A DNA stretch of 64,000 nt from Sneathiellales bacterium (GTDB taxonomy: Bacteria; Pseudomonadota; Alphaproteobacteria; JANQFL01), in the NCBI GenBank assembly GCA_028277845.1, contig JANQFL010000108.1, positions 62,001-126,000 on the forward strand. Reading direction: 5' to 3'. Below the pieces are notes generated by a model. The model searched no databases and was not told the origin of the DNA. It saw nothing but the letters and a program-made list of their open reading frames with translations. How positions within the stretch are numbered: position 1 is the first letter of the stretch; each line of letters starts with the position of its first letter. Shown piece by piece: positions 57,170 to 60,649 of the stretch. The translations under genes were made by a program, and so were the position numbers.

Positions 57170-57997
57170 ATGAGCAAACTGGACGGCAAAGTCGCCCTGG
57201 TCAGCGGCTCGGGCCGCGGCATCGGCCGGGCCATCGCCATGAAGCTGGCTTCGGAAGGCGCCCGAATCGTGGTCAACGATCTCGACCGCGCGCCGGCGGA
57301 GGACACCACCGCCGCCCTCAAGGCGACGGGCGTCGACGCCGTCGCCTGCGTCGGCGACGTCACGGCGCCCGACTTCGGCGAGCGCTTCGTCGCCACCGCT
57401 GTCGACAGCTTCGGCGCCGTCGACATCATCGTCAACAACGCCGGCTATACCTGGGACAATGTCATCCAGAAGATGGAAGACGAGCAGTGGTACGCCATGA
57501 TGGACGTGCACGTCACCGCGCCGTTCCGCATTCTGCGTGCCGCCTCCGAGTTCATCCGCGCCAGGGCCAAGGAGGAAAAGGCGGCGGGGCAATCCGTTTA
57601 CAGAAAAGTGGTCAACATCTCCTCCATCGCCGGGCTTTACGGCAATGCCGGCCAGATGGGCTATGCGGCGGGCAAGTCGGCCATGGTCGGCATCACCCGC
57701 ACGCTCTGCAAGGAATGGGGCCGTTACAACGTCAACGTCAATTGCGTCGCCTTCGGCCTGATCGAAACCCGCCTGACCCAGCCCCTCGCCGACGGCCAGG
57801 CGACCATCCAGATGGGCAACAAGGAGATCAACGTCGGCATCCAGCCCCACATGCTGGCGATGATGAACCAGGTCATCCCATTGGGCCGCGGCGGAACGGC
57901 GGAGGAGGCGGCCGACGCCGTCTATCTGTTCTGCTCGCCCGAATCCAACTACATCAGCGGCCAGGTGCTGGTGGCGGGCGGCGGCTTGCTGATGTGA
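57170..57997 (+). CDS. SDR family NAD(P)-dependent oxidoreductase
   Basis: The 275-residue SDR has the cofactor motif SGSGRGIGRAIA (the TGxxxGxG motif starts SG here), NNAG in DIIVNNAGY, and the catalytic Ser (NISSIAG), Tyr and Lys in GYAAGKSAMVG. Length and motifs fit a classical 3-ketoacyl reductase-like SDR. Its terminator may be the one at 58167. Together with the MDR gene and the FAH-family hydratase it suggests degradation of a carbonyl compound, but the pathway is not clear. Confidence 0.93.
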   Translation: MSKLDGKVALVSGSGRGIGRAIAMKLASEGARIVVNDLDRAPAEDTTAALKATGVDAVACVGDVTAPDFGERFVATAVDSFGAVDIIVNNAGYTWDNVIQKMEDEQWYAMMDVHVTAPFRILRAASEFIRARAKEEKAAGQSVYRKVVNISSIAGLYGNAGQMGYAAGKSAMVGITRTLCKEWGRYNVNVNCVAFGLIETRLTQPLADGQATIQMGNKEINVGIQPHMLAMMNQVIPLGRGGTAEEAADAVYLFCSPESNYISGQVLVAGGGLLM

Positions 57998-58039
57998 TTT
58001 GGCCATCCGGCCACCTAAACGGACCCAAAACGGACATTG

Positions 58040-58082
58040 TGTGACGGACGTCACAGTCCGCCATGGCCGGTCCGCCTATAGT
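58040..58082 (+). promoter_or_regulatory. CRP-type site with class II spacing and -10 element
   Basis: TGTGACGGACGTCACA (58040-58055) is a perfect CRP-family palindrome, TGTGA-N6-TCACA. A -10 element TATAGT is at 58077-58082, so transcription would start near 58089. The palindrome centre is then 41.5 bases upstream, the canonical class II activator position. The motif is seen; activity is inferred. Confidence 0.68.
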
Positions 58083-58088
58083 GACTAT

Positions 58089-58199
58089 GGAAACGAATTT
58101 GGCGCGTGGAAGATGGATTTAGCCAAAGCTCCGTTTTCACTACCTCTCACTCCGAATACTCAATACGGCCCCGGTCTCTCCCCGGGGCCTCTTTTTTTG
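58089..58199 (+). ncRNA. Candidate small RNA, about 110 nt, with intrinsic terminator
   Basis: Between the SDR and hydratase genes there is a CRP-type promoter (58040-58082) and, about 80 bases downstream, an intrinsic terminator at 58167-58199. A transcript starting near 58089 would be about 110 nt. It has no supported ORF: an ATG at 58111 has only a weak GGAAG directly before it. The region CTACCTCTCACTCC (about 58139-58153) is unpaired-looking and C/U-rich, like the anti-Shine-Dalgarno segments of many alphaproteobacterial sRNAs. It could instead be the 5' leader of the hydratase gene, but the terminator argues against that. Confidence 0.5.
58167..58199 (+). terminator. Rho-independent terminator
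   Basis: The stem GGCCCCGG / CCGGGGCC (58167-58174 with 58182-58189) with a seven-base loop TCTCTCC is followed by TCTTTTTTT. It is the clearest intrinsic terminator in the window. It ends the candidate small RNA and can also stop readthrough from the SDR gene. Confidence 0.9.
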
Positions 58200-58240
58200 C
58201 GATCAGTGTATGCTGACGACCGGATATTTTGGGAGCCGCC

Positions 58241-59032
58241 ATGAACACGATCGTCGATGAATTGGTTGCCGCCCGGTTGCACGGCGCGCCGTTGACCGAT
58301 ATGGACCGGTCGATCATGCCGGTGTCGTTGGAGCAGGGTTACGCCGTCCAGGATGCCTTGCACCGGCGGCTGGGCGAGACCGTCTTGGGCCGGCGCTGCG
58401 GCTGGAAGATCGGCTGCACCACGCAGGTCATGCAGCAGTATATGCAGATCGACAGTCCGTGCGCCGGCGGCGTATTCGCCTCGACGGTGCTGGTCTCGCC
58501 GGTCGATGTGCCCTATGCGGCCTATGTGCGGCCGGGGGTGGAATGCGAGATCGCGGTGCGCCTGGGTGACGACCTGCCGGCCGCTGGGGCGCCCTATGAC
58601 CGGGCCGCCGTGGCCGCCGCCGTGGCCCATGTGCATGCCGCCATCGAAATCGTCGATGAGCGCTTCACCAATTGGCGCGACCAGGAAACCCCGGTGCTGG
58701 TGGCCGACGATTTCTTCCAGGCCGGCGCCGTCATCGGTCCGCCGGTGGATTTCACACCCGGCATGGACCTGGCGGCCGTGGCGGGGGACATGTCCGTCAA
58801 CGGCCGGTTGATCGGGCAGGGCATGGGCGCCGACGTGCTCGGCCATCCCCTCGATGCCCTGGCGTGGCTGGCCAACCTGCTGGCCGGGCGCGGTCTTGGT
58901 CTCGAACAGGGCGATCTGGTGCTGACCGGTTCGGTGGTGCAGACCCGCTGGGTCGACGCCGGCGACACGGTCGTCTTGCGCATCGCCGGGCTGGGCGATG
59001 CACGGGTGACGTTTACCGAATACGCGGAATGA
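58241..59032 (+). CDS. 2-keto-4-pentenoate hydratase / FAH-family protein
   Basis: From ATG 58241 (GGGAG five bases upstream) the protein has 263 residues. It has family features of MhpD/DmpE-type hydratases: GWKIGCTTQVMQQYMQID, RPGVECEIAVRLGDDLP with the acidic metal ligands, and EIVDERFTNWRDQETPVLVADD. The C-terminal segment GLGLEQGDLVLTGSV closes the FAH fold. These enzymes hydrate 2-oxopent-4-enoates or decarboxylate related oxo-acids in aromatic-ring cleavage. No ring-cleavage genes are adjacent, so the substrate is open. It converges with pckA. Confidence 0.92.
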   Translation: MNTIVDELVAARLHGAPLTDMDRSIMPVSLEQGYAVQDALHRRLGETVLGRRCGWKIGCTTQVMQQYMQIDSPCAGGVFASTVLVSPVDVPYAAYVRPGVECEIAVRLGDDLPAAGAPYDRAAVAAAVAHVHAAIEIVDERFTNWRDQETPVLVADDFFQAGAVIGPPVDFTPGMDLAAVAGDMSVNGRLIGQGMGADVLGHPLDALAWLANLLAGRGLGLEQGDLVLTGSVVQTRWVDAGDTVVLRIAGLGDARVTFTEYAE

Positions 59033-59041
59033 ACGTGCGGA

Positions 59042-60649
59042 TCAGGCCGCGTGCGGCGCGGCGGCCTTGATGTCCTGGGTGACGTGCTCCTCGAACTGGA
59101 CGAAGTTGTCGTTGAACCGTCCGGCCAGGTCGCGGGCCTTGTCGTCGTAGGCCGTCTTGTCGGCCCAGGTGTTGCGCGGCGACAGCACGTCGTCGGGCAC
59201 GCCCGGGCAGTGCTGCGGCACCAGCAGGCCGAAATTGGGGTCGGTGTCCACCGGCACGTCGGCCAGGGTGCCGTCCAGTGCGGCGTTGAGCAGGGCGCGG
59301 GTATGGCCGATCGGCATGCGGTGGCCGGTGCCGTAGGCGCCGCCGGTCCAGCCGGTGTTGACCAGCCAGCAGTTGGCGCCGGTTTCGGCGATCTTCCTGC
59401 CCAGCAGCTCGGCGTAGACCGACGGATGGCGCGGCATGAACGGCGCGCCGAAGCAGGTCGAGAACGTGGCCTGCGGTTCCTTGCCCAGGCCCTTCTCGGT
59501 GCCGGCCACCTTTGCCGTATAGCCCGACAGGAAGTGGTACATGGCCTGGTCCGCCGTCAGCTTGGAAATCGGCGGCAGTACGCCGAAGGCGTCGGCGGTC
59601 AGCATGACCACGTTCTTGGGCTGGCCGGCGATGCCGGTCTCGGACGCGTTGGGGATGAAATCGATGGGGTAGGAGGCGCGGGTGTTTTCGGTCAGCGAGG
59701 CGTCGTCCAGGTCGAGCACGCGGGTGTCGCTGTCGATCATGACGTTCTCCAGCACGGTGCCGAAGCGGTTGGTGGTGGCGTGGATCTCCGGCTCGGCCTC
59801 GGCCGACAAACGGATCACCTTGGCGTAGCAGCCGCCCTCGAAATTGAACACGCCCGTATCGCCCCAGCCATGCTCGTCGTCGCCCACCAGGGTGCGCCGG
59901 GCGTCGGCCGACAGGGTGGTCTTGCCGGTGCCCGACAGGCCGAAGAACACCGCCGGGTCGTCGTTCGGGCCGACATTGACCGAACAGTGCATGGGCAGCA
60001 CGCCCTTTTCCGGCAGCAGGTAGTTGAGGATCGAGAACACCGACTTCTTGATTTCGCCGGCGTACGACGTGCCGCCGATCAGCACCAGACGCTGGCCGAA
60101 GTCGATCAGCACGCAGACGTTGGAGCGGGTGCCGTCGGTTTCCGGGTCGGCATGGAAGCCGGGCGCCTGGATGACCGTGAACTCGGGCGCGAAGCCGGCC
60201 AGTTCGTCGGGCAGCGGCTGCAGGAACATGTTGCGGGCGAACAGGTTGTGCCAGGCCGATTCGGTGATCACCCGGACGGCGAGGCGGTGGTCCTTGTGGG
60301 CGCCGGCCCAGCAGTCCTGGACGAACAGGTCGCGGCCCTGCAGGTAGCTGAGCATACGGTCGCGGATGCCGTCGAATTTCGCGCGCTCGAGCGGCTTGTT
60401 GACGGCGCCCCACCAGATGTTGCCTTCGCTGGATGGCTCGCGGCTGATGAACTTGTCGTTGGCCGAACGGCCCGTGTGCTCGCCCGTGCGCACCACCATG
60501 GCACCGCCTTGCGACAGCATGCCTTCCGAACGGCGCAGGGCCTCCTCGTACAGCGCCTCGGTCGAGAAATTCCAATGGGCCGTGTTGACGTTGCTGATGC
60601 CGTGTATGTCCAGCCCGTTACGGCTGATGAATGGTCCAGTTTGCTGCAC
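59042..60649 (-). CDS. pckA: Phosphoenolpyruvate carboxykinase (ATP)
   Basis: The 535-residue enzyme converts oxaloacetate to PEP with ATP, the first gluconeogenic step. The start is GTG 60649 with GGGGG seven bases upstream. Signatures are RSANDKFI near the N-terminus, [12 protein letters not shown] (kinase-1a P-loop), [21 protein letters not shown] (kinase-2 and metal site), and [15 protein letters not shown]. The length is standard. Together with chvI-chvG it forms an arrangement characteristic of Alphaproteobacteria, here interrupted by the HugZ-like gene. Confidence 0.98.

Follow-up and report, generated by a model that had tools for sequence, protein, structure and literature searches.

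Small RNAs under CRP control and RNAs of the αR8 family

Small RNAs (sRNAs) controlled by CRP are well studied in enterobacteria, and CyaR and Spot 42 are known examples of sRNAs regulated by CRP proteins. CyaR is an enterobacterial, CRP-activated, short terminated RNA which represses mRNAs by pairing near the Shine-Dalgarno (SD) sequence. In the literature, where CyaR is cited as a CRP-dependent riboregulator, few studies report small-RNA regulation by a CRP, and one alphaproteobacterial case has been described (PMC10127613). The sRNA SMelC181 of Sinorhizobium meliloti is activated by Clr-cNMP (PMC10127613).

The αR8 RNAs (MmgR; SisA-D of Caulobacter) are built from three parts: (i) a weak hairpin; (ii) the single-stranded segment UUUCCUCCCU; and (iii) a terminator (PMC12559287). 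Among them, SisA represses mRNAs by pairing its UUUCCUCCCU segment near start codons (PMC12559287).

The predicted RNA described here lies in a window of 64,000 nt from Sneathiellales bacterium (Alphaproteobacteria; JANQFL01), namely positions 62,001-126,000 of the forward strand of contig JANQFL010000108.1 (GCA_028277845.1); all coordinates below are those of the window unless a contig or locus is named. Like CyaR, it is a short terminated RNA behind a CRP-dependent promoter, the latter being predicted in the window; but the two have no sequence relation, they come from different classes of bacteria and the window RNA has no match in Rfam at gathering score. The first-pass annotation had described it as not recognised. 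With SMelC181 it has in common that a CRP-like protein governs an sRNA of an alphaproteobacterium (again, predicted in the window), whereas the Clr consensus is GTNNCNNNNGNNAC.

The likeness to αR8 RNAs would be one of layout: a weak hairpin, a single-stranded anti-SD segment and a Rho-independent terminator. In the window, the terminator is clear, while the 5' hairpin is no better than those of shuffled sequences. The best-scoring relaxed match to suhB/αR8 (RF00519) reached 17.7 bits against a cut-off of 41 (E 0.18), a value within the background range of the genome. Membership in αR8/suhB/MmgR was ruled out by this score and by the missing 10-mer UUUCCUCCCU, the window having CACUACCUCUCACUCC instead. 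Two clear suhB/αR8 RNAs are encoded elsewhere in the same genome (C34:25976-26053, 69.2 bits; C31:3490-3570, 46.8 bits). The window RNA probably has the layout of this family and would work alike, its C/U segment pairing with SD regions in the Hfq-type manner.

Architecture of the locus

The operator TGTGACGGACGTCACA (TGTGAC-N4-GTCACA), read directly from the sequence and assigned to no strand, occupies 58040-58055. Its half-sites form an inverted repeat that is perfect at all six outer positions, with the centre at 58047.5. On the plus strand, a -10 element, TATAGT (58077-58082; 5/6 match to TATAAT), begins 22 bases after the operator, and the start predicted from it (~58089) places the operator centre at -41.5, as is typical of CRP-activated class II promoters (TGTGA-N6-TCACA centred near -41.5). 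A promoter scan of the locus found no match to a -35 element, which class II activator promoters commonly lack.

From the geometry of promoter and terminator, together with the absence of a coding signal, an sRNA of ~110 nt is predicted at 58089-58198 (plus strand). Three parts can be distinguished, all on the plus strand: (i) a tentatively predicted 5' hairpin, GAAGAUGGA...UCCGUUUUC (58109-58138), the fold of the RNA without its terminator being no better than shuffles (z -0.3); (ii) a C/U-rich, largely single-stranded segment of anti-SD character (58139-58166); and (iii) an intrinsic terminator of eight G-C pairs and U7 (58167-58198), recognized by stem-loop scan and folding energy. The stem of the latter, GGCCCCGG-7-CCGGGGCC, encloses a loop of 7 nt, extends over 58167-58189 and has a folding energy of -18.7 kcal/mol; T7 follows at 58192-58198, and such a long U-tail is a feature of Hfq-type sRNAs. 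On the minus strand there is no T-run after the stem, and the terminator thus acts on plus-strand transcripts only. Both the palindrome centred 41.5 bases upstream of the TATAGT-derived start and the strong terminator about 110 nt further on had been put forward in the first-pass annotation, and direct reading, stem-loop scan and folding energy confirm them.

The interval is flanked by two plus-strand genes: a short-chain dehydrogenase/reductase (SDR) gene at 57170-57997 (Pfam PF00106) and, downstream, a 2-keto-4-pentenoate hydratase-like gene of the FAA_hydrolase family at 58241-59032 (Pfam PF01557; NCBIfam match below cut-off). At 59042-60649, one gene away from the sRNA and convergent to the hydratase gene, is pckA, which encodes PEP carboxykinase and is a classic gene of carbon control.

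CRP sites in the genome and probable identity of the regulator

The genome of 5.39 Mb contains nine perfect TGTGA-N6-TCACA sites versus ~1.9 expected from base composition, and one in a reversed-pattern control; that at 58040-58055 is the only one in the window. Perfect sites followed by T6 at 81-141 nt number two in the genome and none in the control. On contig C12, a site (locus L005) lies between a gene for a cNMP-binding/HTH_Crp protein and a second terminated RNA, of 70-80 nt, divergent from crp, whose promoter carries TACAAC at +22, the spacing that TATAGT has in the window. The C12 protein has the recognition helix STTRETVAR, its RETVAR being close to the RETVGR of the E. coli CRP helix. 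A third site, TGTGACGGCCGTCACA, also perfect, is located a short way upstream of a gene for a class III adenylate/guanylate cyclase (L008 1501-1516; C76:13177). As for the C12 RNA itself (L005 1501-1625; C12:46619-46743), it has a hairpin at its 5' end and a terminator, together with a CC/CCCC segment that is single-stranded.

Given that these sites are found beside a crp gene and a cyclase gene, a cAMP-type CRP would be the natural reader of the site, and the protein that reads 58040-58055 is most likely the RETVAR-helix protein of contig C12. The genome has 14 HTH_Crp_2 matches (six above cut-off), and control of the RNA by another protein of the CRP/FNR family, instead of by cAMP-CRP, is an alternative to be weighed. 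It appears unlikely, although it is the best placed of the alternatives considered here: FNR/FixK proteins prefer TTGAT half-sites, and in this very genome TGTGA sites stand beside genes for a cNMP-binding CRP and for a cyclase.

Similar RNAs beside crp genes in other Alphaproteobacteria

A class-wide search of 385 alphaproteobacterial genomes for an operator followed by a T-run found this pattern in 44 of them. Four of the loci adjoin crp genes, adjacency to crp having played no part in the selection: one divergently (G229) and three directly downstream, in tandem (G183, G042 and G266). When 60 regions downstream of other crp homologs were then examined, seven turned out to hold an operator-like site with a score of 8-10 of 10, followed by a short C/U-rich RNA that ends in a terminator. 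In total, the crp-downstream type is present in ten genomes from about nine families, and the divergent type, with four further cases, in five genomes besides that of the window. In the four CRP proteins checked, the gene adjoining such an RNA encodes the helix STTRETVAR or STSRETVAR.

The crp-linked RNAs resemble the window RNA in their operator, their C/U segment, their GC-rich terminator with U-tail and, at G183, the spacing of the -10 element. But while those of G183 and its like are directly downstream of crp, the window RNA is not next to a crp gene and instead lies between the SDR and hydratase genes. Against the suhB/αR8 model, most of the crp-linked RNAs reach 23-30 bits, under the 41-bit cut-off.

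Two other observations were made in the course of the search. In G347 (C1:2802077-2802199), a suhB-like RNA (35.9 bits, just under the cut-off) follows a perfect CRP-like site and a TATAGT at the same +22 spacing; it is possibly a CRP-controlled relative of αR8. In G174 and G270, two species of one genus, a perfect CRP-like site precedes a conserved, terminated transcript of ~115 nt with no obvious relation to the window RNA.

Sequence relationship of the window RNA to crp-linked RNAs

The genomes compared include no relative of the window's genome below class level, and blastn of the locus against 58 genomes and then against 385 alphaproteobacterial genomes found no homolog. Among the compared loci, R1, a single-sequence RNA model of the window RNA, picks out G183 (26.8 bits, E 6.5e-5 in 408 kb); since R1 gives ordinary terminators in other genomes 27-30 bits, this match rests on motif and locus and not on the bit score. 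With regard to the locus, G183 has a perfect operator, a TATAGT at +22 and an RNA directly downstream of crp. With regard to the motif, both RNAs carry, just before the terminator, ACCUCUC (3-nt gap) ACUCCG (1-nt gap) AUACUCAA; compared with the window motif (58142-58163, inside the C/U-rich segment), G183 shares 21 of 22 positions, two gaps being allowed. Shuffling the window motif 3000 times reached the score of this alignment once, and 3000 shufflings of the G183 region never did; in the ~1.9 Mb compared, a single unrelated stretch of 120 nt came within four points of it. The 5' half of the predicted sRNA is not conserved.

A further model, R3, was made from ten crp-downstream RNAs with the window left out. 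In the 64-kb window R3 has a single match, at 58138-58197 and in register, with 23.6 bits and an E of 0.004 for the 147 kb searched; the sequences searched outside the window had themselves been chosen as sRNA or CRP-site loci. Its other matches are the two suhB copies of the genome, the C12 RNA and CRP-site RNAs. Over whole genomes, by contrast, R1 and R2 mostly return ordinary GC-rich terminators, so that bit scores alone are no proof of homology and such matches were not counted as homologs.

Readings based on the neighbouring genes

The promoter could, in principle, serve the hydratase gene, with 58089-58198 as its 5' leader and the hairpin as an attenuator that lets some transcripts pass. 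The gene is on the same strand, starts 42 nt after the U-tract and has a good SD, and no other promoter is obvious for it. We nonetheless regard this reading as rather improbable, a little more so than control by another CRP/FNR-family protein. The terminator is strong (-18.7 kcal/mol, U7) and the fold contains no competing antiterminator; the 3' module is found again downstream of crp genes, in unrelated surroundings; and in the 400 bp upstream of 23 hydratase relatives no CRP-like site scores above 8/10, from which it follows that the operator is not tied to the hydratase.

Less probable again is that the hairpin is a plain terminator of the SDR operon, the palindrome and TATAGT being coincidental or regulating something else. 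In its favour, operons need terminators, the end of the SDR gene is 170 nt upstream, and about two perfect sites are expected in the genome by chance. Such a coincidence nevertheless fails to explain the exact -41.5 geometry and the match of R3, a model from which the window had been left out; nine sites versus one in the control and the same layout at the crp locus also speak against it.

That the transcript codes for a small protein or is a dual-function RNA is very improbable. An open frame does span the interval (57999-58244), its last bases, ATGA, lying at the hydratase start, but it takes in the terminator stem, lacks an SD and has a GC3 of 0.52 versus 0.85-0.89 in the flanking genes. 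On this difference the frame was judged non-coding and the coding reading was rejected, which bears out the earlier statement that no supported ORF lies between promoter and terminator.

The C/U-rich segment and candidate targets

According to the first-pass annotation, the C/U-rich stretch near 58139-58153 could pair with SD sequences. The segment is indeed there, and 58139-58147 is mostly unpaired in the fold ensemble; on the other hand, 58152-58157 tends to pair, and on average shuffled C/U-rich segments pair with ribosome-binding sites just as well. Any C/U-rich RNA would therefore do, and the anti-SD role, though plausible, is generic.

A seed search with the segment in the window's genome, with two mismatches allowed, gave eight other matches, fewer than the control; three of the eight overlap ribosome-binding sites. 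The best duplex is formed with the dapB site GGGAGUGAGAGGCAUG, at -26.0 kcal/mol versus -20.5 for the best of 244 background sites. The ribosome-binding site at the dapB start (C116:5660-5673) is thus unusually complementary to the window RNA; after allowing for ~5000 genes, dapB as a target is suggestive only.

Proposed mechanism and significance

We hold it likely that 58089-58198 is a stand-alone sRNA gene which a cAMP-type CRP, most likely that of C12, activates and whose C/U segment pairs with SD regions, thereby blocking translation. The earlier proposal of a complete, CRP-controlled sRNA gene, itself a prediction, gains support at the level of sequence from (i) the same promoter layout at a crp locus; (ii) the crp-linked RNAs in other families; and (iii) the R3 match. 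The proposed mechanism would comprise three steps: (i) a cAMP-type CRP (that of C12, with the RETVAR helix) would bind 58040-58055 and, as a class II activator, switch on transcription from the TATAGT promoter in a cAMP-dependent manner; (ii) the RNA would end at its own terminator, and its U-tail would load Hfq; and (iii) the segment 58139-58166 would pair with the SD regions of mRNAs, perhaps including dapB, and their translation would be blocked. The window RNA, then, probably acts as a regulator under cAMP control, by blocking ribosome-binding sites.

A broader reading, on which we are almost evenly divided and lean slightly against, is that crp genes of the STTRETVAR subfamily carry their own CRP-switched anti-SD sRNA, downstream or divergent. 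This arrangement would represent a built-in cAMP-CRP-sRNA circuit, unrecognised and widespread in Alphaproteobacteria, of which the window RNA would be an unlinked second copy.

CRP-activated sRNAs are already known (CyaR; SMelC181); what is new is this candidate member and the recurrent linkage to crp. Of the two, the repeated association of such RNAs with crp in Alphaproteobacteria is the more interesting result. If true, the reading proposed here would provide (i) a concrete, testable link between cAMP and post-transcriptional control in Alphaproteobacteria; and (ii) a recurring arrangement, in which crp has its own sRNA as a neighbour and for which tests in cultured relatives are possible.
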